Of a DNA stretch of 43,880 bases, positions 11,643-41,520 are shown piece by piece. The translations under genes and the position numbers were made by a program. This DNA is from a virus. Location: positions 1-43,880 of IMG/VR virus record IMGVR_UViG_3300036393_000020, one strand, 5' to 3'. The notes beneath the pieces are model-generated. The model saw nothing but the letters and a program-made list of their open reading frames with translations. It did no database searches and had not been told where the DNA came from. Every line of letters starts with the position of its first letter. Position 1 is the stretch's first letter.

Positions 11643-11864
11643 AAATTCAGTAGACCGAAAACTTTTGTCAGTCAACGCAAGAATGAGGGTTTGGGGCGAT
11701 GTTTTGGGCACAGGGTCGAGCGATCGCTTACCTTAGCAGGAGAACTCATCTACAACCCTATTGCTCAAAACGCAGATGATACGGGCATTCTGGCGGATTG
11801 TATACAATCCGCCAGAATGCCCCAATGGTAAGCCTTCTAGAAATCTTTTCGGTCTACTGAAATT
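11643..11864. repeat. 222-bp segment bounded by 19-base near-perfect inverted repeats
   Basis: AAATTCAGTAGACCGAAAA (11643-11661) and TTTTCGGTCTACTGAAATT (11846-11864) are reverse complements with one mismatch. The segment contains the 40-bp palindrome at 11783-11822 and no convincing gene. It could be a MITE related to the adjacent IS4-type element, or two facing IS ends left by nested insertion. Confidence 0.7.
11783..11822. repeat. 40-bp perfect palindrome
   Basis: GGGCATTCTGGCGGATTGTA is followed directly by its exact reverse complement, with no loop. It is centred between 11802 and 11803, inside the inverted-repeat segment just upstream of the IS4-type transposase. It can form a cruciform or a very strong RNA hairpin. 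Confidence 0.9.
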
Positions 11865-11871
11865 AACTATA

Positions 11872-15192: not shown

Positions 15193-15408
15193 TTACGCTG
15201 ACTCCTCCATCTTCTTCCTGAGGCTGAGCGGTTTCATGTCAGTCCACACTTCCTTTATGTAGGCTAGGCATTCTGTCTTGGACCCTGTTTTACCTGCATC
15301 GCTCCAGCCGAGCGCGTTTTCTCGGTCAGTGGGCCAAATGGAATACTGCTCTTCGTGATTCACTACAACTTTGTAAATTGTGGTGTCTTCTTTGTCATAT
15401 GTATTCAT
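15193..15408 (-). CDS. mbtH: MbtH-like NRPS chaperone
   Basis: A 71-residue protein with the full MbtH pattern: N17-H-E-E-Q-Y-S-I-W25-P, W35, CLAYIKEVW55TDMKPLSLR. The three tryptophans that clamp the adenylation domain are present. MbtH proteins bind A domains and allow their folding and activity. The gene has a strong AAGGAGA site upstream of its ATG. It lies 67 bases after the exporter, in the same orientation as the NRPS genes, and probably serves one or more of the four A domains of this cluster. Confidence 0.95.
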   Translation of the reverse strand: MNTYDKEDTTIYKVVVNHEEQYSIWPTDRENALGWSDAGKTGSKTECLAYIKEVWTDMKPLSLRKKMEESA

Positions 15409-16813: not shown

Positions 16814-19800
16814 TTATAGCTCGCTAACTGGATGCTCCGTATCCAAGAAACCAATACGAGTGAAATAGGAGAAGTAGGTGTCAAGCAATTGATCATTGAT
16901 TGGTGGACAAACGATGGAAGTACCTGCAAGTCCATCTAACGTGTTCTGGCAGTCAAACTGTACACTGCTAAATTCATCAGATATCAGCTCCTTGAATGTC
17001 TTTTCAGAAAACAGAGGAAGAAGTGAATAAGCTGCATTTTCCGAGGAGTGATCGGCGATGCTAATCAATTCTGCTCGCCACTTATCAGGCAAAATCTGCT
17101 TGAGCGGGTAGCTACGGGCGCGTATCCAATCAACAAGCTTGCTCATATGGATGGGGTGGGGATTGAATAAGTGAAAAGCCTTACCTATCGATTCTGGCTG
17201 CAGCGATAGATGAACAATTGCTTTGCTTACATAATCTACAGGGGTCATGCCCCACCTAACATCTAAGTCTGGGGCACTTCCCACCTGAATACAAGCTTTA
17301 ATCATTCTCCACAAAAAGTCATCTGTTTGACAAGCACCTGTTTGGCTATCTCCTGATATTCTTTCTGGTCTATAGATGCAGACAGGAAGACCACGGGAAC
17401 GTGCAGTCATCACTAGTTTTTCAGCAACCCACTTGCTTGCCGTATACCCAAATCTGGAACCTTTGTAACTGTATTCGAGATTGTCCTGCTCTTGGATTAT
17501 AGTGCCTGCGGGATGGCTAACAAACTGGAAAACAGAGATAGTGGAAATGTGATGTACAGGCTTCACCTTGGTTTGACATGCCAATTTAAGAACCTCTTGG
17601 GTTCCTAAAACATTGGCCGCTTTGAGTACAGAGTACGGATAGATATGATTTGTAGACGCACCATTGTGATAAATTACATCAATTTCGCTTGCCATCATTT
17701 GAAATTGCTTTGCTGAAAGACCTAAGAGTGGCTGAGATAAATCTCCTACAACTGGGATGATTCTGGAACTCAAATCTTCTTGCCAGAGTGAATATAATTC
17801 TAGATTTCTTTGAATCTTCTTCTTAGCTTCCTCAGCATTGAGTGAACGTACCAAACAATAAATGTGCGCCTGAGTTTGCTCAAGGAGTTCATGGAGTAAA
17901 AAAGCTCCCAGAAAGCCTGTGGCTCCAGTCAAGAAGATAGAAGATGCGGTTATATGCTCAACAGCTACAGCTTCTGGATAAATTGTGGGTTCCAAGATAG
18001 TTTCAGCATTGATGTCAGCGATTTCAATAATGTCAGTTACAGCGCCAGTGTCCGTGCGACCAAGAACTTCGATAGCTTGGGCAATACCAGCTACAGTAGG
18101 TGTCTCAAAAAAACATTGTAGAGGTAAATCTACTTGAAAGACCTCGCGCAGTTGGAAAACAATCTGGGTAACCAACAAGGAGTGTCCACCTAAATCAAAG
18201 AAGTTGTCATGCACCCCCACTTTGTCAATGCGGAACGCTTCAGCCCAGATTCGCGCCACCGTTTCTTCAGTGTGGTTGCGAGGAGCCACAAAAGTTTTCT
18301 CTAGCTCAGGTCTAGCCTGAGTAGGAGCTGGAAGTGCGCGGCGGTCTATCTTGCCGCTGGCCGTCAGCGGCAGGGCATCTAACGTCACAAAGGCAGAGGG
18401 AACCATGTACTCAGGTAATTTCTCCTTGAGGAAACTACGCAGTTCTTCGACTGTGAGCGGCTGCTCCTGATTTGGCACAACATATGCCACTAGGCGTTTG
18501 TCACCAAGGTCATCCTCCCGTGCTACAACTACAGTTTCTCGCACTCTGGGATCTTGTGCCAGCACTGTCTCGATTTCACCTAGTTCGATACGGAAACCAC
18601 GGATTTTCACTTGCTGGTCAATGCGACCTAAAAACTCAAGCTTTCCATTGGGTAAGTAGCGAGCTAAATCTCCAGTCTTGTAAAGGCGTGAACCTGGCTC
18701 ATTGCTGAAGGGGTTTGGAATGAACTTCAAAGCGGTTAGATTGGGTTGGTTGAGGTAGCCTAGGGCTAGCCCGACTCCGCCAATGTGCAGCTCGCCCGGT
18801 ACGCCAATAGGTACTGGTTGCAGATGCGGATCTAGTAGATAGATTTGCGTGTTGGCGATCGGGTGACCGATATAAATCAAGTCGTCCTCAAACGTAACTT
18901 CATAAACAGCCGACCAAATAGTAGTTTCGGTAGGACCGTACATATTCCACAGTGAAGCTCCTCTTTCTAATAACTGACGAGCTAGCTTCTGAGGTAGAGC
19001 TTCTCCACCGCAGAGGATTTTCAGCCTTTGACTGCCATGCCACTCAGCATTCAAAAGTAACTGCCAAGTCGCAGGAGTTCCTTGCATAACAGTAGCACCA
19101 GATTTAACTAAATAATCTGATAGTTGTAAACCGTCCGACGCAATTTCACGACTTACTAGTACTAAACAACCTCCTAGACTAATGGGTAAGAATATTTCTA
19201 GAACTGCAATATCAAAAGACACACTGGTAGTACCAAGAAAAATATCTTGATTAGTTAATCCTAGATGTTCACACATAGACATGAGGAAGTTAACTACTGA
19301 CCGATTGAGAACTTGTACCCCTTTAGGTTGACCTGTAGATCCTGAAGTATAAATGACGTAAGCCAAGTTCTCTGCCGTAGTACTGTCACTGGGAAAATTC
19401 GACTCAGAGCAAGTGGCGATTTTACTCCAATCAGTATCTAAATAGACTACCTGAGTATTATGTTTCGGGATTTGCAAGTATTGTTGAGTCAACATCACCG
19501 AAACTTGGGCATCGCCGAGTATATAAGCAAGTCGCTCTGGAGGATAATTCGGATCGAGAGGGATATAAGCTCCACCAGCTTTCAGAATTCCTAACAGCCC
19601 AACGACCATTTCCAATGAACGTTCCACACAAATACCTACCAGTGTCTCTGCTCCCACCCCCAGTGTCTTTAGGTAGTGTGCTAGTTGATTGGCACGAGCA
19701 TTCAATTCTCTATAGGTAAGTTGTTGGTTCTCAAACACCACCGCCACTGCTTCTGGTGTGCGCTCTACCTGCTCCTCAAATAGCTGATAGATACATTTAT

Positions 19801-22800
19801 CTTGAGGATACTGGGTTTGGGTATCATTCCACTCCACCAAAAGTTGATGCTTTTCCTCAGCAGAAAGCAGATTCTGCAATTCATAGCATTCATCTGGATC
19901 GTTGGCCATTTGTGTGAAAATTCTGAGGTAATATCCCGCAATGGCTTCTAGCTGCTCATCACAGAAATCGCTAGTTTGAACGTCTAGGTAAAGCGTCAGT
20001 TCTGACGTGAAAGAATCTAAAACAAAGTAAGCACTCAATGGGAAAAATGTCTGGTCTGATTTGTTACGAAAATCTAAAAGCTCTATTTCACTAAACCCTT
20101 CAAGGCTTTGATAAATGTGGAAATTGATAAAGTTAAATATCGTCTCGAACCAAAGCTGACGACCATTGTGTCGGTGCAATTCGGCAAGAGGATATCGTCG
20201 GTGGGGCAATAAATCACATTCTGCCTCGAAAGTGGCTTTTACCAAATCTAGCCAGGTGCCACCTCCAAACTTTAGGCGTAAGGGCAAAAAGTTCAGGAAA
20301 AGACCGAGAACTCGATCGCCATCTTCTGCTTCTGGGCGACCATTCACTAACAAACCTGTAACTACATCTGATTGACCGCTAAGTAAACCAATAACTCTAA
20401 GATGTCCAGCTAGCAGGACGCTCTTGAGGGGAACACTAGTACGGCTGGCTAAGTTTTTTAATCCCTCTAATACCTCTGTGGCAATGGGAACAGGAACCCG
20501 AAAAGGAAGAGTCTTGGGCTTTTGAGTATTTTGAGTACTCCTAGCAGGCCAGTGTGCTAACACCGTAGGATTACAGTCCATCAGCTTTTGAGTCCAGAAC
20601 TGCTTGCTTTGATCAGATTTGAGAGCCATACGCTCCAGCGCGACAAAATCTCTATAAGAAGTTTTAGGTGATGCTTCAACAATAGGAGTTTGCCCACGCA
20701 AAAAAGCAATGTAGTGGTGGGCTAGTTCAGTTAGCATTGAGGCTGAACTCCAGCCATCAAGAAAAAGATAGCTAAAGGTGAGCTGAAAAGTTTCTTCGCT
20801 AAGGCAGTGAACGTAGAAGCGTACAAAAGGATGACTTCCCCAGTCGAACTTTCGTCTTTTTTCTGTTTCTAACCAAGCATTCAGTAAATTTTCTTGTTCA
20901 GTGAAATCAAGATGTCGCAGATCGTCTACTTGTAAGGGAATGATAGATGTCCGATGCACTAACTGTAACGGTTCGCTGAAATTAGCTAGATCGAATGAAG
21001 TACGGAGTATGGCATGGCGATTCACAAGTAGTTGCAAAGCCTGCCGGAAACTTTCAGGCTCAAAGCGACCTCGCAAGCGAACGCTCTGAATATAAACTTC
21101 TTCGTAGTTTGAACCAGAACCGGACTGCAAACGAATGTTCTGATTATGAACTTCGTAGTTTGAACCAGATTCAAGGTGAAAAATCACTCCCGCTTGGAGC
21201 ATGGAAAGAGGGTAGGCATCTTCCACATCATCGGGCAGTTTCTTTCGATCCTCATTAAAGATCAGGCCAAATAGTTCTGTCTTCAATCTAGATAAAAGTT
21301 CAGGCTTCACTACTATGAGGTTTTGAGCTAACTCATGAATTGTTTGATATTGAAACAGTTGTTGGAGGGAGAATTCTAAACCCATTTTCTGAGCTTGAGC
21401 TTGAACCTGAATACCGCGAATGGAGTCTCCCCCGATATCAAAGAAGTTGTCATAAATACCTACTTGCCTGATACTTAGCACATTAACCCAAATATTGGCT
21501 AGCATTTCTTCTATAGGTGTTCGGGGAGCTACAAAACTAGCTGTCAATTGTTGCGCTACTTCAGGTGCTTTTAAGGCGCGGCGATCTAGTTTTCCATTGG
21601 GGGTCAAAGGGAGCGCATCTAAGTACACGAAAGCAGCTGGCACCATATATTCTGGTAACTTCTGTTTCAAGAATTGTCGCAAGTCGCTAATACTGGGGTT
21701 GTGCTCGGCATCGCTGACGAGATAGGCTACTAAGCGTTTATCATCTGGTGTATCTTCTCTCTTGATTACCGTCACCTGCTGCACGTGAGGGTATTGGCTC
21801 AATACTGCTTCAATCTCACCCAACTCAATCCGAAAACCGCGAATTTTGACTTGGTTGTCAATCCGACCGATATACTCAATATTGCCATCGCTTAAGTAGC
21901 GAGCTAAGTCCCCTGTTTTGTATAGTCGTGATTGTGGGTCATCACTAAAGGGATTAGGGATGAATTTCTCTGCTGTAAGTTGGGGACGGTTGAGATAGCC
22001 TCTGGCTAAACCAGCGCCGCCAATGTGTAACTCTCCAGGCACACCAATTGGTGTTGGTTGTTTTTTGGAGTCAAGGATATAGATTTGAGTGTTGCTTAGG
22101 GGGTGACCGATGGGAACAGTTGAAGATTGTCGAGTATCAGGCACTCCTTCGACTTGGTAAGTAAGAACTCCTACCGTAGTTTCAGTCGGTCCGTAGTGAT
22201 TGATAATCTGAGATTCTGGAGCTAGTTGTTGAATTTGTTTGATTAACTCCCAACTAGTTGATTCTCCACCAAGAACTAAACGCTGAGGTGTCAAAATTTG
22301 CGAGCCAGCCTCTGATGTTAACAACGCTCTTAGATGGGAGGGAACAATCTTAAGACAATCGATTGAATTGGAGTGGAAGTAATCGGCCAGACCTTTGGCA
22401 TTAGTGATTCGCTCCGAAGAGATTATATGCAGACATCCGCCACTACACAAGGAAGGGAAGATAACAGTATGACCCAAGTCTGCTGCTATGGTAGAAACTA
22501 TCGCATAATTGGCATCAGCAGGAAGATTAAGTACGGTTTGAATGCTGTTGAGATAGTTAAACAATTGCCGATGTTCGATCGCTACACCTTTAGGCAACCC
22601 AGTAGAACCAGAAGTGTAAATGACATAAGCTAGATTTTCTGGTTTTACCTGAGTGTTGGGATTGTCGTTGGCTTCGTGAGCTATTTTCTCCCAATCAGTG
22701 TCGAGGTGGATAACATTAACTTGACAATTAGTCAGATTTTTTTGTAGCTTCTGTTGAGTCAATAATACTGAAACTTGGGCATCTTGCAGCATATAGACTA

Positions 22801-24451
22801 AACGCTCTGATAAATCATTGGGATCTAGGGGTAGATAAGCTCCACCAGCTTTGAGTACTGCCAATAGACCTATCACCATATCCAGAGAGCGTTCTACATA
22901 GATACCTACCAGTGTCTCTGCTCCTACTCCTAAGGTTTTGAGATAGTGCGCCAATTGATTAGCACGATTGTTCAATTCCCTGTAAATCAGTTGCTGGTTC
23001 TCAAACACTACTGCCACTGCTTCTGGAGTACGTTCTACTTGCTCTTCAAACAACTGGTGAATGCACTTTTCTTGGGGATAGTCGATTTTCGGATCATTGA
23101 ATTCAATCAGCAATCGTTGTCGTTCGCGATCGCTACACATTTCTAAATCGGCGATCGCTTCATCTGGATGATTGATCGCGCTTTCGAGTAAAGTCAGGTA
23201 TTGTTCTGAAAGGATTTGGATGTTTTTGAGGGGAAATAAGTTGGAATCATAATGAAACTCAAGCAACAAGCGATCGTCTCTACAAACCCCAGAAAGTTTT
23301 ACTCTAAAGCGATCAATACAAGTGTATTGGTTGTAGACAGAAAATATGATGTCATCAACAACACAATTTGTAGACTGTTCTTGAAAATCAAAACAAAAAG
23401 GAAAAAAGGGTGGCTCTGTCCCATTTCCATTCTTAGCGGCAACTTCCTCCCAGCTAAAATATTCTTGCCATTTGTTACCGTAGCTTAAAGTTTCCTCAAC
23501 TTTTTTGAGTAGTTCTCGAAAGCGAAGATTTTCTTCAAGATAGGAATGGATGGGTAGATACTTAGTCAATAATCCTAAGACATCTTCTAATTCTGGATAT
23601 TTACGTCCATCGCTGGCAGTGCCGACAACAATATCTGACTGTTCGGTGAAACGCCAGAGTTGAATTTGCCAGCAAGCTAGTAAGAAAACAGAAATCGAAG
23701 TGTCATACTTGCTCGCAAGCATTTCTAACTTTGTTACTGTATCGGAATTAATTTCTAGTGTTAGAGATTGAGGTTCAAATCGTACTTTGGCAGATGAGTG
23801 ATTTTCTAAAGGGATTTTCCAACTTAAAGCAGAAAAAACATCTCGCTGCCAATACTTTCTTCCTATTTCTGTGTCCTCTGATTCCAATAATTCATTTAGC
23901 CATGCAGATATATCCGCGTACTGCATCGATTCATCAGAAAGTTCTCTACCATGCAAGTATGCTCCATAAGAATGACAGATTTCTTTGACCAAATTATGAA
24001 GTGTTAATAGATCGGCGCAAACGGCAGGTAAGCTGATAAATAAGATCTGCTCACATGATGACAGCTTGCTTAAGACTGTATATAAAAGAGGTTCTTTTCC
24101 AAAATCGAAAGTTTGCCATCTTCTATCTTGAAAAAGTGCGTCGATCTCAATCTTTTGTTCTTGGGAAGTCAAACTGCTTAGATCGCGTTCTTCAAACATT
24201 AGCATACTGTTTTCAGTTACGAACTGAAGCGGAATTGACATTTCAGGCAAGCAATTGAAAACGGTACGAAGAATTTCTTGTCTCTTAATGATGTTTTCTA
24301 AGACAGCTTTTAAAATTTCTGGAGCAAAATTTTCCTGAATACGTATAGCAATTTGAGAATAATAAGCCTGAGAGCGATCGCTTTGCTGTAAAACCCAGAG
24401 ATGCTTCTGCTGAGGTGAAATACGAAACCCATTGCCAATTGTACTTTGCAT
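16814..24451 (-). CDS. NRPS: [C-like, no HHxxxDG]-A(Asp)-PCP-C-A(Gly)-PCP-thioester reductase
   Basis: About 2545 residues from ATG 24451; the longer TTG start at 24511 adds 20 residues before the first C motif. The N-terminal condensation-superfamily domain has LPAVCAD near residue 142 in place of HHxxxDG. The first A domain (about 455-970) gives specificity residues D-L-T-K-V-G-H-V-G, matching the Asp code. PCP1 is DNFFDIGGDSI (Ser near 1007). The second C domain reads FSYLFLDGWS near 1229, lacking the HH pair. The second A domain (about 1550-2050) gives D-I-L-Q-L-G-M-I-W, the Gly code. PCP2 is DLGGHSLL. The C-terminal Rossmann domain (IFLTGATGFLG at about 2169, later YTASKWVAEK) is a thioester reductase, so the product is released as an aldehyde or alcohol rather than an acid. 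Confidence 0.93.
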   Translation of the reverse strand: MQSTIGNGFRISPQQKHLWVLQQSDRSQAYYSQIAIRIQENFAPEILKAVLENIIKRQEILRTVFNCLPEMSIPLQFVTENSMLMFEERDLSSLTSQEQKIEIDALFQDRRWQTFDFGKEPLLYTVLSKLSSCEQILFISLPAVCADLLTLHNLVKEICHSYGAYLHGRELSDESMQYADISAWLNELLESEDTEIGRKYWQRDVFSALSWKIPLENHSSAKVRFEPQSLTLEINSDTVTKLEMLASKYDTSISVFLLACWQIQLWRFTEQSDIVVGTASDGRKYPELEDVLGLLTKYLPIHSYLEENLRFRELLKKVEETLSYGNKWQEYFSWEEVAAKNGNGTEPPFFPFCFDFQEQSTNCVVDDIIFSVYNQYTCIDRFRVKLSGVCRDDRLLLEFHYDSNLFPLKNIQILSEQYLTLLESAINHPDEAIADLEMCSDRERQRLLIEFNDPKIDYPQEKCIHQLFEEQVERTPEAVAVVFENQQLIYRELNNRANQLAHYLKTLGVGAETLVGIYVERSLDMVIGLLAVLKAGGAYLPLDPNDLSERLVYMLQDAQVSVLLTQQKLQKNLTNCQVNVIHLDTDWEKIAHEANDNPNTQVKPENLAYVIYTSGSTGLPKGVAIEHRQLFNYLNSIQTVLNLPADANYAIVSTIAADLGHTVIFPSLCSGGCLHIISSERITNAKGLADYFHSNSIDCLKIVPSHLRALLTSEAGSQILTPQRLVLGGESTSWELIKQIQQLAPESQIINHYGPTETTVGVLTYQVEGVPDTRQSSTVPIGHPLSNTQIYILDSKKQPTPIGVPGELHIGGAGLARGYLNRPQLTAEKFIPNPFSDDPQSRLYKTGDLARYLSDGNIEYIGRIDNQVKIRGFRIELGEIEAVLSQYPHVQQVTVIKREDTPDDKRLVAYLVSDAEHNPSISDLRQFLKQKLPEYMVPAAFVYLDALPLTPNGKLDRRALKAPEVAQQLTASFVAPRTPIEEMLANIWVNVLSIRQVGIYDNFFDIGGDSIRGIQVQAQAQKMGLEFSLQQLFQYQTIHELAQNLIVVKPELLSRLKTELFGLIFNEDRKKLPDDVEDAYPLSMLQAGVIFHLESGSNYEVHNQNIRLQSGSGSNYEEVYIQSVRLRGRFEPESFRQALQLLVNRHAILRTSFDLANFSEPLQLVHRTSIIPLQVDDLRHLDFTEQENLLNAWLETEKRRKFDWGSHPFVRFYVHCLSEETFQLTFSYLFLDGWSSASMLTELAHHYIAFLRGQTPIVEASPKTSYRDFVALERMALKSDQSKQFWTQKLMDCNPTVLAHWPARSTQNTQKPKTLPFRVPVPIATEVLEGLKNLASRTSVPLKSVLLAGHLRVIGLLSGQSDVVTGLLVNGRPEAEDGDRVLGLFLNFLPLRLKFGGGTWLDLVKATFEAECDLLPHRRYPLAELHRHNGRQLWFETIFNFINFHIYQSLEGFSEIELLDFRNKSDQTFFPLSAYFVLDSFTSELTLYLDVQTSDFCDEQLEAIAGYYLRIFTQMANDPDECYELQNLLSAEEKHQLLVEWNDTQTQYPQDKCIYQLFEEQVERTPEAVAVVFENQQLTYRELNARANQLAHYLKTLGVGAETLVGICVERSLEMVVGLLGILKAGGAYIPLDPNYPPERLAYILGDAQVSVMLTQQYLQIPKHNTQVVYLDTDWSKIATCSESNFPSDSTTAENLAYVIYTSGSTGQPKGVQVLNRSVVNFLMSMCEHLGLTNQDIFLGTTSVSFDIAVLEIFLPISLGGCLVLVSREIASDGLQLSDYLVKSGATVMQGTPATWQLLLNAEWHGSQRLKILCGGEALPQKLARQLLERGASLWNMYGPTETTIWSAVYEVTFEDDLIYIGHPIANTQIYLLDPHLQPVPIGVPGELHIGGVGLALGYLNQPNLTALKFIPNPFSNEPGSRLYKTGDLARYLPNGKLEFLGRIDQQVKIRGFRIELGEIETVLAQDPRVRETVVVAREDDLGDKRLVAYVVPNQEQPLTVEELRSFLKEKLPEYMVPSAFVTLDALPLTASGKIDRRALPAPTQARPELEKTFVAPRNHTEETVARIWAEAFRIDKVGVHDNFFDLGGHSLLVTQIVFQLREVFQVDLPLQCFFETPTVAGIAQAIEVLGRTDTGAVTDIIEIADINAETILEPTIYPEAVAVEHITASSIFLTGATGFLGAFLLHELLEQTQAHIYCLVRSLNAEEAKKKIQRNLELYSLWQEDLSSRIIPVVGDLSQPLLGLSAKQFQMMASEIDVIYHNGASTNHIYPYSVLKAANVLGTQEVLKLACQTKVKPVHHISTISVFQFVSHPAGTIIQEQDNLEYSYKGSRFGYTASKWVAEKLVMTARSRGLPVCIYRPERISGDSQTGACQTDDFLWRMIKACIQVGSAPDLDVRWGMTPVDYVSKAIVHLSLQPESIGKAFHLFNPHPIHMSKLVDWIRARSYPLKQILPDKWRAELISIADHSSENAAYSLLPLFSEKTFKELISDEFSSVQFDCQNTLDGLAGTSIVCPPINDQLLDTYFSYFTRIGFLDTEHPVSEL
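21078..21169. repeat. 54-base tandem duplication inside the second C domain
   Basis: Two diverged units, about 21078-21118 and 21132-21169, share CGTAGTTTGAACCAGA and the flanking TCTGAATAT/TCTGATTAT. In the protein they give two SGSNYE segments, one after the other. The period of 54 bases keeps the reading frame. The segment lies in the N-terminal strand region of the C domain, which is usually not duplicated. Confidence 0.75.
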
Positions 24452-24617
24452 ATATCTACGTCCTTTTTCTCCTAAAAATGTTTCCAATTTAACAAACTTC
24501 GGCGGGTTCAAGTCCCCGGCTACAAGAGAAGCCGCAAGTATGTGTTTGCTCTTGTCTTTATAAGAGTTACAAAACTGTACTTTCTCTCTTCGTAGCGGTA
24601 GCGAGTCCGCGAGCGTC

Positions 24618-24642
24618 CTTCCGACTTCCGACTTCCGACTTC
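24618..24642. repeat. Seven-base tandem repeat (CTTCCGA)n
   Basis: Three and a half direct copies of CTTCCGA lie one base beyond the hydroxylase stop codon, in the 190-base gap before the last NRPS gene. They are of the short tandemly repeated repetitive (STRR) type found in filamentous cyanobacteria. The text just left (GTAGCGGTAGCGAGTCCGCG) belongs to the same class of dispersed repeats. Confidence 0.8.
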
Positions 24643-24643
24643 T

Positions 24644-25675
24644 TTAACAAGTTTCAGACATACCTACCAAAACCTTTCTGCTGCCGATAAAAGGCATACG
24701 TCCATGAGCAGCTAACATATTGTCCAGCAACAAAATATCTCCTTTCTGCCAGGGAAAAATCACACTTTCCTGTTGATAGACCTGATTAATTTTTTCGATT
24801 ACTGAGGGTTCAATAGGAGAACCATCGCCGTAATAAGAATTGCGTGGAATAGCATTTTCTGTCAGCGAAGAGAGTAATGATTCCTGTATCTCCGTTTCCA
24901 AACTGGAAATGTGAAACAAATGAGCTTGGTTGAACCAAACCATTTCACCTGTATAAGAATGTTTGGCAACAGTCTGGCAAACTTGACGGGTTGTTAGGCG
25001 ATCCTTTATCCATTCAAATTCAATGCCCAATTTACGGCAAAAACTTTCTAATTCTGATTTATTTGTGGTTTGAAAAACATCTTGCCAGGACAAATCTAAA
25101 TCGCCGTAGTTGCGAACATACATCACCTTCTTTTGCATAAACTTTTCTTTGATGGCAGAATCGAGTCTGGCAAAAACTCTTCGACTGTCAGCAATCGGTG
25201 TTTCTCCACCTTCTTCGGCAGGCTGGACGCAGAAAAAACAAATTTTCATCGGCCAAACGGAAGAATAAGAGTTTTCATTATGGAGAGGGATTGATTGGTT
25301 GGAAGGATATTCAGTTGAGGTATAGATTTTACCGTTTATCTGAGTGCGTGGAGTTGAACGATAATTATACTCTACTAATTCTCCTCTAGAAATTGCCTGA
25401 ATGAATTCCTGGAATTCTTGCACTCCATTGATATTAAAATTCCGAAAAAGTATACCTCCATAATTTAGTAAATGAGCTTCAATCAAATCCCGATTTTTTT
25501 CAGACCATGCGACTAAACTTACTCCATCTATAATGGGTGAAATAACTAAAGGAAGAAAGTTGTCAGAGTAAAGAAACTTTTCTTCGATTAATTTTTCTCG
25601 ATCTCGATCAATTGGCTTTCGCTGAGCCTTACGTAACTTATTGATCCTGTTTTCTTCGGTTTCTGGGATTTTCAT
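24644..25675 (-). CDS. SyrP/TauD-type Fe(II)/2-oxoglutarate hydroxylase, likely Asp beta-hydroxylase
   Basis: A 343-residue non-haem iron dioxygenase of the TauD/SyrP group. Iron ligands H132 and E134 (PLHNEN) and the distal H324 (AAHGRMPF) are visible, and R333 (GSRKVLVG) would hold 2-oxoglutarate. SyrP-like enzymes hydroxylate Asp bound to a carrier protein. Here the next gene holds the only Asp-coding A domain of the cluster, so hydroxylation of Asp-S-PCP is the natural reading. The ATG overlaps the stop of the free-standing C domain gene (ATGA), so both are translated together. Hydroxylation of a free amino acid or of the Asn module is an alternative. Confidence 0.88.
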   Translation of the reverse strand: MKIPETEENRINKLRKAQRKPIDRDREKLIEEKFLYSDNFLPLVISPIIDGVSLVAWSEKNRDLIEAHLLNYGGILFRNFNINGVQEFQEFIQAISRGELVEYNYRSTPRTQINGKIYTSTEYPSNQSIPLHNENSYSSVWPMKICFFCVQPAEEGGETPIADSRRVFARLDSAIKEKFMQKKVMYVRNYGDLDLSWQDVFQTTNKSELESFCRKLGIEFEWIKDRLTTRQVCQTVAKHSYTGEMVWFNQAHLFHISSLETEIQESLLSSLTENAIPRNSYYGDGSPIEPSVIEKINQVYQQESVIFPWQKGDILLLDNMLAAHGRMPFIGSRKVLVGMSETC

Positions 25676-27237: not shown

Positions 27238-27260
27238 GAGAATTTTCCTGTCTTCAGTAA

Positions 27261-30200
27261 CTACTTTTCTGTGGAGAGAATTTTTTGCACTTCGTCGTTG
27301 GATAGTTGCTCTAGTTCTGCCAACATATCAAGAAGCTTCTGGTTATCTACTTGCTCAACTTGTTTGTCTACAATTTGTACAGCCAAGTCTGCGATCATGG
27401 GTGCTTCAAACAAACTGCGTAGGGATAGTTCTACTTGGAAGGTTTTCTGTACCCGAGAAATTAACTGCGTAGCGAGCAGAGAATGTCCCCCCAACTCGAA
27501 AAAGTTGTCATCAATACTTACTTGCTTGACCTCTAGAATTTCAGCCCAAATCTGTGCCAGCATCTCCTCTACAGAGTTGCGGGGTGCAACAAAAGTTCTT
27601 GCCCACTCTGGTCTAGTGTTGTCGGGTATAGGAAGTTGGTGACGATTAATTTTGCCATTGGGTGTCAGTGGCAATGTTTCCAGGAATACAAAGGCAGAGG
27701 GCACCATATAATCTGGTAGCCGTTCTTTGAGGAAACTACGCAATTCGCTGACCGTGGGTGCCTGCTCCTGGTTCGGGACGACATAGGTCACCAGGCGCTT
27801 GTCGCCGGGTACGTCCTCCCGAGCCATAACCACAGTCGCTCGCACAGCCGGGTGTTGAGCCAGCACTGCCTCGATCTCTCCCAGCTCAATGCGGAAACCC
27901 CGAATTTTCACTTGATGGTCGATGCGTCCTATGTATTCAATATTGCCATCTGCTAAGTAGCGTACTGAATCTCCAGTTTTGTAGAGGCGCGAATACAGCT
28001 CAGTGCTAAAGGGATTGGGGATGAATTTTTCTTGTGTCAACTCTGGACGGTTGAGGTAGCCTCTTGCTAACCCAACACCAGCAATATGTAACTCTCCTGG
28101 TACACCCACAGGTACTGGTTGTAAGTACGAGTCTAGGATGTAGATTTGCGTGTTGGCTATTGGTCGCCCAATCAAAATCCCTTGTGCTAGTGAAGTCTCA
28201 TTTTTCACTTCGTAGAAGGAGCAGCCAACAACTGTTTCGGTTGGACCGTATTCATTGATTAGTCGGGTGTTTGGGGCGTTTTGTCTCCAGAAGTGGAGGG
28301 TTTTGCCAAAAAGGGGTTCACCACCAATGACTAATGCTTTGGTTTGTGCTGCGGCTTCTTGAGAGGGGAGTAGTTGGTTGAGTAATTCCAGATGGGCTGG
28401 TGTGAGCTTGACTAAGCTAAACCGGCGCAATTGCAAAACGACACAGAGGGCTTCAATTTCTTGCTGTTCTGGGAGGAGAATGACTTGTTTTCCGACTATT
28501 AATGGCGAGAAGAGGCTGGTAATGGTGGCATCAAAGGCAAAGGAAGACTGCACGGGTGCGCCATCGCCATCGGCGACAGCATAAGCCTGGGTACACCAAC
28601 TGAGATAATTGACGACCCCTTGGTGCAGAATCATTGTCCCTTTAGGTCTACCTGTAGAACCGGAGGTATAAATCACATAAGCCAAGTTAGTTGCTTGCAC
28701 ATCAGTGATTGGATTATTTTGAGGAGACTGAGAAATAAGCAGCCAGTCAGTATCCAAGCAGACAAGCTGCGCTTGATGCTGTGGAAGCCTGTCAACCAAT
28801 CGCTGTTGAGTCAGCAGCACCGAAACTTGAGCATCTTCGAGCATAAAGCTCAACCGACCGGTGGGATACTCCGGGTCAAGCGGCACATAAGCCCCACCCG
28901 CCTTGAGAATTCCCAGCAGTCCCACCACCATATCCAATGAGCGTTCCACACAAATGCCCACCAGCACATCTGCTCCCACACCCAAAGACTTGAGGTAGTG
29001 CGCCAACTGGTTAGCACGACTATTCAACTGGTGGTAAGTAAGTTGTTGATTTTCAAACACGACTGCTACAGCATTTGGAGTGCGCTGAACTTGCTCCTCA
29101 AACAACTGATGGATACATTTATCTAGTGGATAATCCACCTGCGTATCATTCCACTCAACGAGTAACTGCCGTTGCTCAACCTCTGTCAGCAAAGGCAATT
29201 GGGAAATTTGTTGCTGTGGATTGGCAACAATACCTTCTAGCAAGGTCTGAAAATGCCCCGCCATCCGCCGGATGGTGCTGGCATCAAACAAGTCTGTGTT
29301 GTACTCCAACCAACCTTTAATTCCGTTCGCTGTCTCCTCCAGGTCGAGTGTCAAATCAAACTTCGCCGTCCCATTGTCAACCTCTAGCGGACTCAATTTC
29401 AGACCAGAAAATTCCAGGGAGGGCATGGGAGCGTTTTGAAGGGCAAACATTACCTGAAACAGGGGCGTGTGGCTCAGATCCCGCTCTACTTGCAGGGTTT
29501 CTACCAGCTTCTCGAAGGGTAGATCCTGGTGGTTATAAGCTTCCAGAACCACCTTGCGCACCCGACCAAGCAGTTCTCTAAAGGTGGGGTTGCCTCCCAA
29601 GTTAGTACGCAGTACAAGCGAATTGATGAAAAACCCGATCAAATCCTCTGTTTCTACTTGATTGCGATTGGCAACAGGAGATCCTACAAGAATGTCTTGT
29701 TGCCCTGTATAGCGGTAAAGCAGTATTTTGAAAGCTGTCAGCACAGTCATGAACAAAGTTGTTCCTTCTTGCTGACTCAGGTCTGCGATCGCTTCCAATA
29801 AGGACTTTGACAACTGCAATGCTTGCCTTGCCCCATGAAAGGTCTGAACCGCCGGTCGTGGTCGGTCAGTGGGCAATTGTAGTATGGGGAGACTACCACC
29901 AAGTTGCTGCTTCCAGTAGCTCAGTTGTGTTTCTATGACTTCCCCTTGCAGCCACTGCCGTTGCCAAACAGCATAGTCTGCGTACTGAATGGGGAGTTGA
30001 GGCAGAAGTGTCGGTCTACTGTTGGCGAAGGCATCGTAAAGTGTTGCCAACTCCCGCACCAACACGCCAAGGGACCAACCATCGGAGACAATATGATGCA
30101 TTGTCAGCAAGAGTGTATGCTCTTGTTCCGCTAGGCGTAGGAGTTTGGCACGCAACAGTGGACCTCGTTTCAAATCGAAAGGCTGTTGGGCTTCCTGTGC

Positions 30201-30632
30201 AGCTAGCTGTAAGGTTTGGGCTTCCCGGTTGCTTTTAGGCAACTGTTGCAAATCTACTATCGGCAGCACGAAAGAAGGGGCAGAGTGAATCACCTGAACT
30301 GGTTGCTCATCCACAGTCATAAATGTGGTTCGCAAGACTTCATGACGCTGCACGATTTTGTTGAGACTCTGTTCTAATGTTGCTGCGTTCAGGCGTCCTT
30401 CTATGTGTATTGCAACCGGGATGTTGTAAGCTGAGCTTCTAGGTTGTAGCTGGTCGAGAAACCACAACTGCTGCTGGGCAAAGGAAAGAGGTACTTCGTC
30501 TAAGTTTTTTATCTTAGAAATTTTTGATGTCTCGTCTAGTTCAACACCTTCCTCTGCAAGTAGGTACGCCAGAAGTTCACGCTGTTGTGCGGAAAGCCCA
30601 GTTTTGTTTGTTGAGTCTTTAATATCTTTCAT
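27261..30632 (-). CDS. NRPS: C-A(Asn-type)-PCP
   Basis: A 1123-residue single-module synthetase. The C domain has MHHIVSDGWS near residue 182. The A domain (about 480-985) has YTSGSTGRPKG, NEYGPTE and KIRGFRIELGEIE. Specificity residues read by alignment to GrsA are D-A-T-K-V-G-E-V-G, closest to Asn codes (D-L-T-K-L-G-E-V-G), with A at the second place. The PCP is DNFFELGGHSLL, Ser near 1047. No epimerase domain is present. Its ATG overlaps the stop of the upstream FAAL-NRPS gene (ATGA). It adds the second residue of the peptide. Confidence 0.92.
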   Translation of the reverse strand: MKDIKDSTNKTGLSAQQRELLAYLLAEEGVELDETSKISKIKNLDEVPLSFAQQQLWFLDQLQPRSSAYNIPVAIHIEGRLNAATLEQSLNKIVQRHEVLRTTFMTVDEQPVQVIHSAPSFVLPIVDLQQLPKSNREAQTLQLAAQEAQQPFDLKRGPLLRAKLLRLAEQEHTLLLTMHHIVSDGWSLGVLVRELATLYDAFANSRPTLLPQLPIQYADYAVWQRQWLQGEVIETQLSYWKQQLGGSLPILQLPTDRPRPAVQTFHGARQALQLSKSLLEAIADLSQQEGTTLFMTVLTAFKILLYRYTGQQDILVGSPVANRNQVETEDLIGFFINSLVLRTNLGGNPTFRELLGRVRKVVLEAYNHQDLPFEKLVETLQVERDLSHTPLFQVMFALQNAPMPSLEFSGLKLSPLEVDNGTAKFDLTLDLEETANGIKGWLEYNTDLFDASTIRRMAGHFQTLLEGIVANPQQQISQLPLLTEVEQRQLLVEWNDTQVDYPLDKCIHQLFEEQVQRTPNAVAVVFENQQLTYHQLNSRANQLAHYLKSLGVGADVLVGICVERSLDMVVGLLGILKAGGAYVPLDPEYPTGRLSFMLEDAQVSVLLTQQRLVDRLPQHQAQLVCLDTDWLLISQSPQNNPITDVQATNLAYVIYTSGSTGRPKGTMILHQGVVNYLSWCTQAYAVADGDGAPVQSSFAFDATITSLFSPLIVGKQVILLPEQQEIEALCVVLQLRRFSLVKLTPAHLELLNQLLPSQEAAAQTKALVIGGEPLFGKTLHFWRQNAPNTRLINEYGPTETVVGCSFYEVKNETSLAQGILIGRPIANTQIYILDSYLQPVPVGVPGELHIAGVGLARGYLNRPELTQEKFIPNPFSTELYSRLYKTGDSVRYLADGNIEYIGRIDHQVKIRGFRIELGEIEAVLAQHPAVRATVVMAREDVPGDKRLVTYVVPNQEQAPTVSELRSFLKERLPDYMVPSAFVFLETLPLTPNGKINRHQLPIPDNTRPEWARTFVAPRNSVEEMLAQIWAEILEVKQVSIDDNFFELGGHSLLATQLISRVQKTFQVELSLRSLFEAPMIADLAVQIVDKQVEQVDNQKLLDMLAELEQLSNDEVQKILSTEK

Positions 30633-33600
30633 ATTTCAACTCTTTCCCCTTTCTTCTGCTGAAGCGTTATTTTTACGTCTTGGGTGGACATAGCTGTAAT
30701 TTTCAAAAAAATCACAGCTATCTTTTCCATTTGTCCTGGTTTTGTTTCGCGAGCAATCAAAATTTGTGATAACTTTGCTACGGTTGCAGCCTCAAAAAGA
30801 CTGTGTAAAGGCAGTTCTACCCGGAAAAGGTCTCGTATTCTGGAAATAACTTGAATCGCAAGCAGCGAGTGTCCCCCTAACTCAAAGAAATTATCGTGAA
30901 TGCCAACGCGCTCAAGTTGCAAAATTTCACTCCATATCATGGCTAGGGCTTCTTCTAACCCGGTAGTTGGAGGAACATAAGTTCCGGTTTGTTCAAAGCT
31001 TGCAATGTCCGGTGCTGGGAGGGCACGATAGTCTAATTTGCCATTTGGTGTCCGTGGCATTTGCGGTAGGGTGACAAAAGTACCAGGAATCATGTAGTCG
31101 GGCAAATAGCTAGATAAGTAAGTGCGTAAACTTTTAACGGAGAATTGCTGATGATAGGGGTATTCGCCAACGGATGGCCAAAATTCAATCTGTTGGTGGC
31201 GTTGTTTGGGTACTAGGTAAGCGAGTAAGCGCTTGCAAGAAGCATCATTACTCGTGTCATCCTGTACGACGACAGCTACGTCCTCAACACTTGGGTGACG
31301 GCGCAAGATTACTTCGATTTCACCCAATTCTAGACGAAAGCCCCGCACCTTAACCTGGTCGTCAAGACGACCGAGAAATTCGATGTTACCATCTGGTAAA
31401 TACAGAGCTAAGTCACCAGTTTTGTAAAGGTATGCCCCTCGTTCATCACTAAAGGGATGGGGAATAAATTTCTCTGCAGTCAGATCAGGACGGTTCAAGT
31501 AGCCACGCGCCAAACCGGCACCGCCAACGTACAATTCACCCGGTACACCGACAGGAACAGGTTGTAAATGCTCGTCTAGGATGTAAACTTGCTGGTTGGC
31601 AATTGGGCGACCAATGGAGATAATTGACGAGTGGCGATCGCACACCCAGTACGTGGCATCAATGGATACTTCTGATGGGCCATAACAGTTGTGGAGTTCT
31701 ACACTACTCAGGAGGGCAAAAAAGCGATCGCGAACTTCTAGGGGTAAGGCTTCACCACCGCAGGTGACATAGCGAAGTGAGATACAACCTTCTAAGCCTG
31801 GTTGCTCCAGAACTAGTTGGAGCATGGCAGGAACAAAATCCACAAGCGTTATTTGCTGTTGAGCCATCACCTTGACAAGATAGCTGGGGTCTTGATGACC
31901 ACCGGGTCGTGCCATAACCAAGCGAGATCCAGACAACAACGCCCCAAACATTTCCCAGACCGACACATCGAAACTAAACGAAGTTTTCTGTAGCACGCGG
32001 TCGTTAGAAGTTAATTGATAACGAATGGTACCAGAAACAAGACGATTAACAATCCCTTTGTGGGGAATCATCACGCCTTTCGGTTGCCCAGTGGAGCCGG
32101 AGGTGTAGATTATGTAGGCAAGGTTAACGGGGATAACAGCCCCAGTTGGGTTGTCTGCACTTTCTTGGGCAATGATTTCCCAGTCTGCATCCAGGCAAAT
32201 AACCTTGGCTCTGTGTTTCGGCAAACTGGCGACAAGGTTTTGTTGGGTCAACAGGATTGTCGCCTGAGTGTCCTCTAACATGAAGGCAAGGCGTTCTTTT
32301 GGATACGTTGGGTCGAGGGGCACGTATGCGCCGCCAGCTTTGAGAATACCCAGTACCCCTACCACCATCTCCAAGGAGCGCTCCATGCAAATCCCCACCA
32401 GCACGTCTGGTTCCACACCAAGTGACTGTAGGTGATGCGCTAGTTGATTAGCTCGAATGTTCAGATCGCGGTAGGTTAGTTGTTCGTTTTCAAAGACCAC
32501 CGCAATGGCATCAGGGGTTTGCTCCACCTGAGTTGTAAATAGCTCGTGGATGCATTGCTCAATTTTGGATTTTGGATTTTGGATTTTGGATTGATTCTGG
32601 TTGAACTCCGCAAGCAGTTGATACAGTTCTGCTGGCGGTAACATGGACAATTCTGAGAGTTCCTGGTTTGGATTGGCAACAATACTCTCTAGCAAAGTTT
32701 GGAAATGACTTGCCATCCGGGTGATAGTGGCAGCATCAAATAAGTCAGTGTTGTACTCTAAGGATGCCGCAAGTTCTCCGTCCACTTCCGCCATCATCAG
32801 TGTCAAATCGAACTGAGCTACCCGCTGTTCCAGTGCTACGGACTCCATCTCCAGTTCACCGAGATGCATTCGTGCTCCAGCCACGCCTAAAGCAAAGGAT
32901 GCTAAGCTTTCAAGCTTTTGCAGATGCGCTTTCTCCAATACAAACATGGTTTGGAACAGTGGCGATCGACTCGGATCTCGTACTGGTTGCAGTCGCTCTA
33001 CCAACAATGCAAAGGGGTAGTCTTGATGTTCAAAAGCATTTAGCACGGTCTGTTTCACTTGACCAAGAAATGCCTCAAAATTTGGGTTCCCTGAAAGATC
33101 CGCTCGTAAAACGACCGGATTGACGAAATACCCTACCAGATCTGCCAAATCAGCACGACTCCGCCCCGCAGTTGGCGAGCCTACTAAAATATCTTTTTGA
33201 CCTGTATAGCGGGACAGAAGCACCTGATAGACTGCCAACAAGGTCATATAGAGGGTGGCTCCTTGAGCGCGGCTCAGTGCCTTAAGTTTCTGTGTTAGCT
33301 CCGCATTCAGCTTAAAGGGCACAGTTGCCCCTCGATAGGTTTGAACTGCTGGTCGAGGTCGCTCAGTGTGTAAATTTAATACTGGTAACTCACCTGTTAG
33401 TTGCCGCTGCCAGTATGCCCAAAGCCTATCTCCTTCTGGACTTGCTAGCATTTGTGCTTGCCACCGAGAATGATCGGCGTACTGTAGCGCCAGTGTGGGG
33501 AAAAATACGGGGATGCCATTCTTTTGCGCTTGGTACAGCATTCCCAGTTCCTGTACAAACACTGCTAAAGACCAAAAGTCGCTAACGATGTGGTGTACAG

Positions 33601-36118
33601 CTAGCAGTAGAACTTGTTCCTGTGGCGATCGCTTGAACAAATTCACCCGCATCAGTTGACCTTGCTCTAAATTAAAAGGACGGTACGCTTTTTCTAGCAG
33701 ACGTTCGTTCAAGAACGCCTCGCTCCAAGTTGAAGCATCTTCTGTGTAGAAACAAAGCTGCGCCTGCTTGTTAACCCATTGAATGGGTTTGTTATCAATA
33801 GCAGTGAAAGTAGTCCGTAAAGCAGAATGTCGTTCTACCAGTTTCTCAAAAGCACGCTGCAATGCTGGAATATCTACATCTCCCTTTAGACGGACTGCAT
33901 TGACAATATTGTAAGCTGGGCTTTCTGGTGCTAACTGGTACAAAAACCATAGAGAACGCTGAGCATAAGAGAGAGGTTGTTCAATATCAGCTTCCGTAAC
34001 AGGGATGAGATCTGTCTGTGGGTTGGGTTTAAGTTCGGTCAACTGAGCTAACACCTGAGTGACAAGCTGGGCAATACTATCACCTTCCAAGAAACTTGTC
34101 ATAGGCAAAATTACTCCCAGATCAGTTTCGATACTGTGCTGTAGTTCTATTGCCATCAAGGAGTCTAGACCCAAAGAGCTCAAAGGCTGTTGACAGTTCA
34201 ACTGGGAAGGAGTTATCTTTAACACCCGCGCCACACACTCCTGAAGATAAGACTCCAAGAGCAGCTTTTGGTCTTTTGGTTCTATTACCAGGAGAGCTTC
34301 GCGAGTCAGTTTATCTTTGCTCTCCATGACATAAGTATCTTCTAAAATGCTGCTAGCTACTACATCCAGGCTTCCATTGAGAAAGCCGACGCCGCAGGCA
34401 TGGCGTTGAATCTTGCCACTGGAAGTTTTGGGAATGTTTCCTGGCTTGAGCAGTAAGACACCATAAACTTGCAACTCGTGTTGTTCTGCGACTGCTTGAC
34501 GAATAGCTTTCACGACCTCCTCGACATCTAAATTCCGGAGGTGGCTGCGCTTGACTTCCACAACAACCGCTAGCCGTTCTTCACGGGTGACATTAATGGC
34601 AAATGCCGCACTACAAGTGGGTTGCAGTGCCGGATGGCTTTGTTCCACTGTCAGTTCAATATCTTGGGGGTAATGGTTGCGACCTCGGATAATAATCAAA
34701 TCCTTGAGGCGACCAGTGACAAATAGTTCCCCTGACTGCAAAAATCCTAAATCTCCCGTGCGGAGAAACGGTCCTGACGCTCCTGGCGTCGCTAACGCTT
34801 CGCTAACGCCAGTGTCCTTGAGGTAGCCTCGGAAAGTGCGTTGTGTTTCCTCGCTCCGGTTCCAATAGCCTTGAGTTACACTTGGACCCGATATCCAAAT
34901 TTCACCTACTTCATCGGGGTTGCAGCGGGTCATTGTCTCTGGATGGGCAATCACAACTTGTAGATCCTGCAAGGGTTGACCGCAACCAACCACTGTTTGG
35001 CTGGCGGAATCCTCCTTGCTAGCTGTAACTACTCGATTTTGCTCTAGCGCTTCTTTTTGAACGGTTTGTAGGATTGGCGGGGCGCTTGCATGACCACCAG
35101 AAACAATCAGAGTCGTTTCTGCCATGCCGTAACACGGGTAGAATGCCTCGCGGCGGAAGCCACAAAGTGCAAAAGCTGCTACAAAACGCTCCATAGTTTC
35201 GGCACGGATCGGTTCGGCTCCGTTAAAAGCCACCTGCCAGCTACTGAGGTCGAGAGTCGCTCGCTGATCGTCCGTAATTTTGTTCACGCATAACTCGTAA
35301 GCAAAATTAGGTCCGCCGCTGGTGGTGCCTTTGTAGAGAGAAATTGCCGTTAGCCAGCGCAAAGGCTTTTTTAGGAAATTTTCCGGCGACATAAGTATGA
35401 CCGGAAATCCACCATAAAGGGGCTGTAGTACATTCCCAATCAGTCCCATGTCATGAAATAAGGGCAACCAGCCTACAACTATACTTTCTTCTGTATGCTG
35501 GAATGCCGTCTTAATGATTTTCTCGTTGTGCAGCAAATTACCATGACTTACCATCACCCCTTTCGGTGTCCCTGTAGAACCCGAGGTGTACTGTAGAAAT
35601 GCTAAAGTGTCGCTATTTATTTTTAAAGGCTGCCAAGAGAGTGCAAAGTTGTTAGTAAGATTTTCGGTAGCTATATAATGCAAAGCTGCTAGTTCTGGTT
35701 CTTGTTTTAAGCTGTGTTCAATATTGGTAAGAACAGATGTTGTTGTGAGGGCGAAACTAGCTTGGGCATCTTTCACAATCGCTTGCAGTCTTGTCATGCG
35801 CTGATTGCGGCGCGGTGGATACGCAGGAACAGCAGTAACACCTGCGTACAGACACCCGAAAAAAGCAGCAATGAATTCCAGTCCAGGCGGGTATAAAAGC
35901 AGCGCTCTTTCTCCAGTAGCTTTCATGCTCTGCAGCAGAGCAGCAAGCGATCGCGCTTTTTGGTCTAATTCTTTATAACTTAAGCTAACTTCTTGGGTTT
36001 CTCCATCTACCAAAAAGGTATATGCTACCTGGCTTTGTTGCTGTAGCGCTCTTTTGCGTAACAGGTCAACCAAAGTCGCTTCACCAAGAGTCGAGACTGA
36101 AAACAAATTGTTGTCCAT
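30629..36118 (-). CDS. Lipoinitiating synthetase: FAAL-ACP-C-A-PCP
   Basis: About 1829 residues from ATG 36118, which has GAGGGG five bases upstream; the longer open frame (36190) lacks a site. The FAAL domain (1 to about 590) shows PAYPPRRNQ, YTSGSTGTPKG and FLRTGDLGF, so it activates a fatty acid as acyl-AMP. The ACP is LGLDSLMAIEL (Ser near 651). The C domain has VHHIVSDFWS near 844, with the D-F variant common in lipoinitiating C domains. The A domain has specificity residues D-V-W-D-T-G-C-I-D, Ser-like in frame but not matching the Ser code. The PCP is DNFFELGGHSLL near 1746. It is the first gene of the operon and acylates the first amino acid. Confidence 0.93.
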   Translation of the reverse strand: MDNNLFSVSTLGEATLVDLLRKRALQQQSQVAYTFLVDGETQEVSLSYKELDQKARSLAALLQSMKATGERALLLYPPGLEFIAAFFGCLYAGVTAVPAYPPRRNQRMTRLQAIVKDAQASFALTTTSVLTNIEHSLKQEPELAALHYIATENLTNNFALSWQPLKINSDTLAFLQYTSGSTGTPKGVMVSHGNLLHNEKIIKTAFQHTEESIVVGWLPLFHDMGLIGNVLQPLYGGFPVILMSPENFLKKPLRWLTAISLYKGTTSGGPNFAYELCVNKITDDQRATLDLSSWQVAFNGAEPIRAETMERFVAAFALCGFRREAFYPCYGMAETTLIVSGGHASAPPILQTVQKEALEQNRVVTASKEDSASQTVVGCGQPLQDLQVVIAHPETMTRCNPDEVGEIWISGPSVTQGYWNRSEETQRTFRGYLKDTGVSEALATPGASGPFLRTGDLGFLQSGELFVTGRLKDLIIIRGRNHYPQDIELTVEQSHPALQPTCSAAFAINVTREERLAVVVEVKRSHLRNLDVEEVVKAIRQAVAEQHELQVYGVLLLKPGNIPKTSSGKIQRHACGVGFLNGSLDVVASSILEDTYVMESKDKLTREALLVIEPKDQKLLLESYLQECVARVLKITPSQLNCQQPLSSLGLDSLMAIELQHSIETDLGVILPMTSFLEGDSIAQLVTQVLAQLTELKPNPQTDLIPVTEADIEQPLSYAQRSLWFLYQLAPESPAYNIVNAVRLKGDVDIPALQRAFEKLVERHSALRTTFTAIDNKPIQWVNKQAQLCFYTEDASTWSEAFLNERLLEKAYRPFNLEQGQLMRVNLFKRSPQEQVLLLAVHHIVSDFWSLAVFVQELGMLYQAQKNGIPVFFPTLALQYADHSRWQAQMLASPEGDRLWAYWQRQLTGELPVLNLHTERPRPAVQTYRGATVPFKLNAELTQKLKALSRAQGATLYMTLLAVYQVLLSRYTGQKDILVGSPTAGRSRADLADLVGYFVNPVVLRADLSGNPNFEAFLGQVKQTVLNAFEHQDYPFALLVERLQPVRDPSRSPLFQTMFVLEKAHLQKLESLASFALGVAGARMHLGELEMESVALEQRVAQFDLTLMMAEVDGELAASLEYNTDLFDAATITRMASHFQTLLESIVANPNQELSELSMLPPAELYQLLAEFNQNQSKIQNPKSKIEQCIHELFTTQVEQTPDAIAVVFENEQLTYRDLNIRANQLAHHLQSLGVEPDVLVGICMERSLEMVVGVLGILKAGGAYVPLDPTYPKERLAFMLEDTQATILLTQQNLVASLPKHRAKVICLDADWEIIAQESADNPTGAVIPVNLAYIIYTSGSTGQPKGVMIPHKGIVNRLVSGTIRYQLTSNDRVLQKTSFSFDVSVWEMFGALLSGSRLVMARPGGHQDPSYLVKVMAQQQITLVDFVPAMLQLVLEQPGLEGCISLRYVTCGGEALPLEVRDRFFALLSSVELHNCYGPSEVSIDATYWVCDRHSSIISIGRPIANQQVYILDEHLQPVPVGVPGELYVGGAGLARGYLNRPDLTAEKFIPHPFSDERGAYLYKTGDLALYLPDGNIEFLGRLDDQVKVRGFRLELGEIEVILRRHPSVEDVAVVVQDDTSNDASCKRLLAYLVPKQRHQQIEFWPSVGEYPYHQQFSVKSLRTYLSSYLPDYMIPGTFVTLPQMPRTPNGKLDYRALPAPDIASFEQTGTYVPPTTGLEEALAMIWSEILQLERVGIHDNFFELGGHSLLAIQVISRIRDLFRVELPLHSLFEAATVAKLSQILIARETKPGQMEKIAVIFLKITAMSTQDVKITLQQKKGERVEI
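32562..32589. repeat. Four copies of ATTTTGG inside the C-A linker
   Basis: Four exact tandem copies of ATTTTGG (28 bases, followed by ATTG) lie in the coding strand opposite and translate as a QSKIQNPKSKIEQ-like linker between the C and A domains. This is the STRR type of repeat, inserted in frame where a flexible linker tolerates it. Confidence 0.85.
34771..34817. repeat. Dispersed palindromic repeat inserted in the FAAL domain
   Basis: The text CTGGCGTCGCTAACGCTTCG ending in CGCTAACGCCAG is palindromic at its ends (CTGGCGT/ACGCCAG) and of the kind repeated across cyanobacterial genomes. In the FAAL protein it adds about eleven residues (VSEALATPGAS) just before GPFLRTGDLG, where relatives have a short loop. 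The frame is kept. Confidence 0.7.
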
Positions 36119-39479: not shown

Positions 39480-39544
39480 TCCACTCCTCCACACTTTACA
39501 GCAATTACACTCGATTCTTGAGTAAACCACATAAAAGTGGTACT

Positions 39545-41518: not shown

Positions 41519-41520
41519 AG

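Follow-up and report, generated by a model that had tools for sequence, protein, structure and literature searches.

The minus strand of the window (the whole 43,880-nucleotide stretch analysed here, IMG/VR record IMGVR_UViG_3300036393_000020, which is the complete contig C79 of a 7.36-Mb genome) carries a predicted beta-hydroxyaspartate (beta-OHAsp) lipopeptide cluster at 15193-36118, as identified by Pfam/NCBIfam domain calls. We consider it probable that this cluster encodes a nonribosomal lipopeptide assembly line that starts with a FAAL and belongs to the beta-hydroxyaspartate (cyanochelin) type of cyanobacteria. The compound class itself has already been described. New here are a beta-OHAsp module split between a lone C protein and an interface domain, the apparent cassette origin of that module and a dehydrating-clade C domain, C4, that lacks the HH of its catalytic motif. 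The carrier is probably a cyanobacterium related to Brasilonema, because the closest relative of the hydroxylase in the same-genus set is the enzyme of Brasilonema sp. UFV-L1 (G397; 82% identity).

The domains are ordered FAAL-T-C-A1-T / C-A2-T / lone C / TauD hydroxylase / interface-A3-T-C4-A4-T-TD / MFS / MbtH (Table 1). The first-pass annotation, made from the sequence alone, had listed a FAAL, an ACP, four A domains, one hydroxylase, a terminal reductase, an MFS exporter and MbtH, all of which were found by domain calls, the hydroxylase as a TauD-family member. The span of 16814-36118 proposed for the operon fits the ATG of the FAAL gene (36118) and the stop of the last NRPS gene (16814), but the MFS and MbtH genes fall just outside 16814. 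Four-base overlaps, said to join several genes, exist at two places, 30629-30632 and 25672-25675, and a stand-alone C gene missing from the earlier gene list is present at 25672-27237. All reading frames of the cluster are intact. NRPS 3 (2565 aa) probably starts at ATG 24451, which aligns with 'MQLSTIEGYRLSPQQ' of CcsL, and not at TTG 24511.

Table 1. Features of the lipopeptide cluster (positions in the window).
Feature	Position	Strand	Description
NRPS 1	30629..36118	-	FAAL-T0-C1-A1-T1; Pfam/NCBIfam and codes
FAAL	34331-36082	-	within NRPS 1
Acyl carrier T0	34046-34258	-	within NRPS 1
C1	32609-33979	-	within NRPS 1; motif HHIVSDF
A1	31010-32539	-	within NRPS 1; code DVWDTGCIDK
T1	30746-30958	-	within NRPS 1
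NRPS 2	27261..30632	-	C2-A2-T2
C2	29160-30500	-	within NRPS 2; motif HHIVSDG
A2	27627-29102	-	within NRPS 2; code DATKVGEVGK, read as Asn
T2	27363-27575	-	within NRPS 2
Stand-alone C protein (C3)	25672..27237	-	LCL-type; intact HHIISDG at 26692-26712
TauD-family Fe(II)/2-oxoglutarate aspartyl beta-hydroxylase (predicted)	24644..25675	-	HNE and distal H/R motifs intact
NRPS 3	16814..24451	-	interface-A3-T3-C4-A4-T4-TD; probable start ATG 24451
Interface domain	23102..24427	-	RISPQQKHLWVLQQ and FISLPAVCAD (24011-24040); no HHxxxDG; counterpart of the first CcsL domain
A3	21557..23056	-	code DLTKVGHVGK, read as Asp
T3	21257..21484	-	GGDSI-type carrier
C4	19832..21223	-	CmodAA/dehydrating clade (by sequence); TFS--YLFLDGW at 20750-20773, HH absent
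A4	18332..19780	-	code DILQLGMIWK, read as Gly
Terminal thioester reductase TD	16817..17944	-	TGATGFLG and YTASK motifs
MFS exporter	15476..16798	-	Pfam/NCBIfam; 38% identity to the MFS of the cyanochelin B locus (BAU16019)
MbtH-like protein	15193..15408	-	PF03621, E 7e-22
Cassette C3-hydroxylase-interface-A3	21561..27105	-	DNA match to Brasilonema sp. UFV-L1

The surroundings of the cluster are mixed. Directly upstream of the FAAL gene and on the same strand lies a filamentous-haemagglutinin-type (TPS-domain) secreted protein (36363-39530), followed at 39628-43603 by phage-like genes for a terminase large subunit, a tail morphogenesis protein and a short C5-cytosine methylase. An M28-family peptidase (12723-15047), on the strand of the cluster and separated from MbtH by 145 bp on the downstream side, is either an operon member or unrelated. 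The contig is also rich in mobile elements, with a group II intron maturase-type domain at 133-783 and an IS4 transposase N-terminal domain at 11761-12393.

In the pathway that we propose, FAAL and T0 would load a fatty acid, C1/A1 would add a residue X and C2/A2 would add Asn. A3 would load Asp onto T3, the free-standing hydroxylase, placed by the interface domain, would hydroxylate the carrier-bound Asp, and the stand-alone C protein would link lipid-X-Asn to the hydroxylated residue. C4/A4 would add Gly, and TD would free the product as Gly-ol or Gly-al, the alcohol being presumably the likelier end. The lipid-X-Asn-(beta-OH)Asp-Gly logic, and with it the beta-hydroxyaspartate lipopeptide class, had been put forward in the first-pass annotation and is supported by the domains and the specificity codes. 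These ten-residue codes (Table 1) were obtained by alignment to a PheA segment, with the ten-position numbering checked by counting, and for modules 2-4 they agree with the Asn, Asp and Gly residues read before. The codes of A2, A3 and A4 are the well-known ones for Asn, Asp and Gly. Applied to the cyanochelin B cluster, where the product is proven, the same script read its final two modules as Asp and Gly. Among the loci fetched, the A domains nearest to A1 are mostly Ser-type; the A1 code departs at H278 and S301, and its acidic residues at 278 and 331 resemble those of basic-residue (Orn/Arg) codes.

Judged by sequence, the parts of module 3 come from three separate genes, for the lone C, the hydroxylase and interface-A3-T3, because of the interface motifs and the conserved C/hydroxylase/interface order in relatives. 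The terms interface domain and interface-dependent beta-OHAsp module were reportedly coined by Reitz et al. in 2019. The earlier reading of a TauD protein plus C-A-T holds for the hydroxylase, A and T, but its "C", the domain that opens NRPS 3 (23102-24427), is an interface domain with RISPQQKHLWVLQQ and FISLPAVCAD at the position of the C-domain HHxxxDG motif. The corresponding domain of CcsL, from the cyanochelin B locus, has RLSPQQKHLWSLQR and ILNLPSLCAD. Membership of the C superfamily, a place before A(Asp) and beside the beta-hydroxylase, and lack of HHxxxDG are the grounds for this assignment. Motif and position are of the same kind as in CcsL, whose product is proven beta-OHAsp. Among 29 relatives from a sample of the order (loci L003-L031) a C domain lies immediately upstream of the hydroxylase in 28 and an SPQQ-type interface domain immediately downstream in 27. 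Beta-OHAsp modules of cyanobacteria are normally built in the order C / hydroxylase / interface-A(Asp). The stand-alone C protein is predicted to join Asn to Asp and shares 80% identity with the pre-hydroxylase C domain of UFV-L1. We rejected the idea that it is an interface domain or a spare, given its HHIISDG motif and the presence of a C domain at that place in nearly all relatives.

The hydroxylase and CcsK from the cyanochelin B locus share 56% identity, and in a search of eight genomes of the genus the UFV-L1-type enzyme was the only close relative. In the hydroxylase tree the window enzyme pairs with that of UFV-L1 (support 100/97), and both fall in a group of stand-alone enzymes, mostly cyanobacterial, to which CcsK also belongs; deeper support is 91-94, and the groupings around CcsK are only moderately supported. 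The window enzyme groups with interface-linked Asp hydroxylases in this tree. A (2S,3R)-beta-OHAsp residue is expected, because the hydroxylase is of the stand-alone type, for which a passage of PMC12628792 cites a 3R rule, and there is no E domain here. Profile HMMs with cut-offs for such hydroxylases, CyanoBH_Asp1 and CyanoBH_Asp2, are available in antiSMASH (PMC12971057). A hydroxylase relative in Richelia sp. SL_2_1 (L087, 9950-11037) is split over two frames by a frameshift or an assembly error.

The cassette C3-hydroxylase-interface-A3 is common to the window and UFV-L1 (NZ_QMEA01000032.1; loci L040, L129, L130) at 86-87% DNA identity, with 87.5% over 21561-24495 and 86.1% over 24644-27105. 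Protein identities are 80% for C3, 82% for the hydroxylase, 82% for the interface domain and 88% for A3, and the last value falls to 20-38% just past A3. Outside this 5.5-kb cassette the best DNA matches among all loci fetched are about 62-75%. For FAAL and C1 the nearest sequences lie on contig C94 of this genome and on contig C287 of UFV-L1. In UFV-L1 the cassette is the last Asp module of a larger line (Asp-Ser-Asp) that differs from the window in having more upstream modules, two hydroxylases with interface-A(Asp)-T-C-A(Ser)-T-C between them, and a thioesterase instead of a TD at its end. The assembly line looks like a mosaic whose cassette has recent common ancestry with a larger beta-OHAsp cluster, and recombination is the simplest explanation of this pattern.

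Comparison with a known beta-hydroxyaspartate siderophore cluster, proposed as a check in the first-pass annotation, showed that the last biosynthetic steps are homologous to those of cyanochelin B (ccs, Leptolyngbya sp. NIES-3755, AP017310.1). Both lines have a FAAL start, the series C, CcsK-type hydroxylase and interface-A(Asp)-T, a Gly module with TD and an MFS exporter. Cyanochelin B ends in beta-OHAsp-ethanolamine, attributed to the Gly module and reductive domain of BAU16060 (PMC12628792), and the window TD is 53% identical to its TD. Reductive release is common to both lines, so that it does not set this one apart as had been thought; we rejected it as a distinguishing feature on the Gly module and TD of cyanochelin B (PMC12628792; protein P0009). 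PKS modules, a thiazoline, E domains, TonB/ABC uptake genes and a second beta-OHAsp (one of the two being made via a fused hydroxylase) are features of cyanochelin B only; the window has a single beta-OHAsp and no PKS, E domain or uptake genes, and its C4 belongs to a different clade and lacks HH.

The sequence of C4 places it in the CmodAA/dehydrating clade described in PMC10880069. Its nearest solved structures are McyA (360 bits) and AmbE (198 bits), followed by an ordinary C domain at 120 bits; as it also groups with CmodAA-type domains, its identification as an interface or E domain was rejected. T3 has the GGDSI form, like the donor carriers of other clade members, a kind found before E and dehydrating domains (PMC10880069). 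AmbE-C2/McyA and C4 are alike in clade, donor T and a beta-hydroxy donor residue, but C4 lacks HH and its donor is beta-OHAsp, found with no other clade member examined. Among the loci fetched, clade donor modules are mostly for Thr/Ser, a few for Gly or others, and for Asp in the window alone. In an alignment of 23 clade members the window alone has TFS--YLFLDGW where the others have FHHAILDGW or CHT/CHNSILDGW, and the absence of HH was seen again with another alignment. C4 also holds about 16 extra residues near its N terminus that resemble a tandem repeat. An AlphaFold model of C4 from a six-sequence alignment had a mean pLDDT of 46 and was set aside. A CmodAA-type subgroup (L093/L126, L106, L107, L109, L036/L128) with CHTSILDG or CHNSILDG, in which the second catalytic His is replaced, sits between Ser/Thr and His modules and is conserved in several genomes.

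Since C4 is without HH and the H1497A exchange in AmbE significantly reduced or abolished the product (PMC10880069), Gly addition by C4 cannot be presumed. The operon had been called complete, which is doubtful with both catalytic histidines missing. The gap may be a six-base assembly error. It is also conceivable, although we lean against it, that the line is partly broken: a recombined dehydrating-type C4 would have lost its active site, and chains would stall at T3 or be slowly released without Gly by a decaying or low-output copy. The loss of HH from an otherwise well conserved domain, when the first His is kept in 22 of the 22 other aligned members, the 16-residue repeat, the marked or complete product loss of the AmbE mutant and the mosaic junction at A3/T3 all point that way. 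However, every frame is open, that of the 2565-aa NRPS 3 included, the other catalytic motifs checked are all present, C4 departs at 7 of 98 near-invariant columns where other members depart at 0-8, and the five-sequence subgroup with a changed second His indicates that this clade allows some variation in the motif. Dehydration of beta-OHAsp to dehydro-aspartate by C4, by analogy to AmbE-C2 acting on hydroxylated Glu, would agree with the bit scores, the GGDSI-type T3 and the beta-hydroxy residues (Thr/Ser) loaded by most clade donor modules. We regard it as highly improbable, as AmbE requires the H1497 (PMC10880069) that C4 has no equivalent of, and as Gly modules, whose residue cannot undergo dehydration, precede some members of the clade. 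Taking both outcomes together, that an HH-less C4 behind a beta-OHAsp module either condenses via another residue and spares the beta-hydroxyl or makes a dehydro-aspartyl lipopeptide strikes us as unlikely.

Whether the product of the proposed lipopeptide line serves iron acquisition is a separate question. The first-pass annotation had seen no TonB receptor and was cautious about a metal-binding role, and both points are upheld: a TonB-receptor family scan found none on the 43.9-kb contig and four elsewhere in the genome. No uptake families were found among the window ORFs scanned, and no match to the 19-bp Fur box consensus was found when up to 3 mismatches were allowed. The window spans the entire contig, so a contig end does not explain why uptake genes are missing from roughly 7 kb on the upstream side and 15 kb on the downstream side. 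The likeness to siderophores had been overstated, as one hydroxylase and one Asp module give a single beta-OHAsp, hence one bidentate group with no second chelator in evidence, compared with two and a likely third donor pair in cyanochelin B. TonB receptors occur in five of six related genomes, several of them beside a beta-OHAsp cluster. Two further contigs of the same genome (G000), C94 (L035, L036) and C112 (L037-L039), carry FAAL-NRPS clusters with TauD hydroxylases and interface-A domains for His (DSALIAEVWK) or Asp, with TonB receptors nearby (C94:28814, C112:138581); these might make beta-OH-His metallophores.

The single beta-OHAsp and the lack of a TonB receptor speak against a siderophore of the conventional sort; in favor of one are the hydroxylase class, the origin of the cassette and an MFS related to its cyanochelin B counterpart. 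The line may instead yield a linear amphiphilic lipopeptide, reduced at its end, that serves as a signal, inhibitor or surfactant in the manner of rotihibin, a possibility we take seriously without favoring it. Rotihibin (rth, Streptomyces scabies) shares with the window a FAAL-initiated linear lipopeptide, MbtH, one beta-hydroxylated Asx and a reductase yielding an amino alcohol, but has an AsnO-type oxygenase, six residues and Asn-ol, and no interface domain is described there; its FAAL, MbtH, single beta-hydroxy-Asn and amino-alcohol end come without a siderophore role (PMC8552735). Some non-metallophores, turnercyclamycin among them, are likewise reported to involve hydroxylases of the CcsK/TauD family (eLife 109154), and the genome already has two beta-OHHis/beta-OHAsp clusters equipped with TonB receptors. 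On the other hand, the cassette stems from, or is common with, a two-hydroxylase cluster of siderophore design, and receptors can be encoded elsewhere and shared. Given the single beta-OHAsp, the missing receptor and the rotihibin precedent, we hold that the line works like the closing stage of the cyanochelin B pathway and do not class it among siderophore clusters.

As a minimal cyanochelin-like lipopeptide, the predicted product would test how small the number of chelating groups is in compounds of this type. The C-hydroxylase-interface-A unit for beta-OHAsp appears to move as a cassette, which is relevant to the engineering of such modules. C4 offers a direct test of whether a dehydrating-clade C domain works without HHxxxDG, and, if true, either reading of the HH-less C4 would mean a new use of the dehydrating clade together with a natural swap of a hydroxyaspartate cassette.
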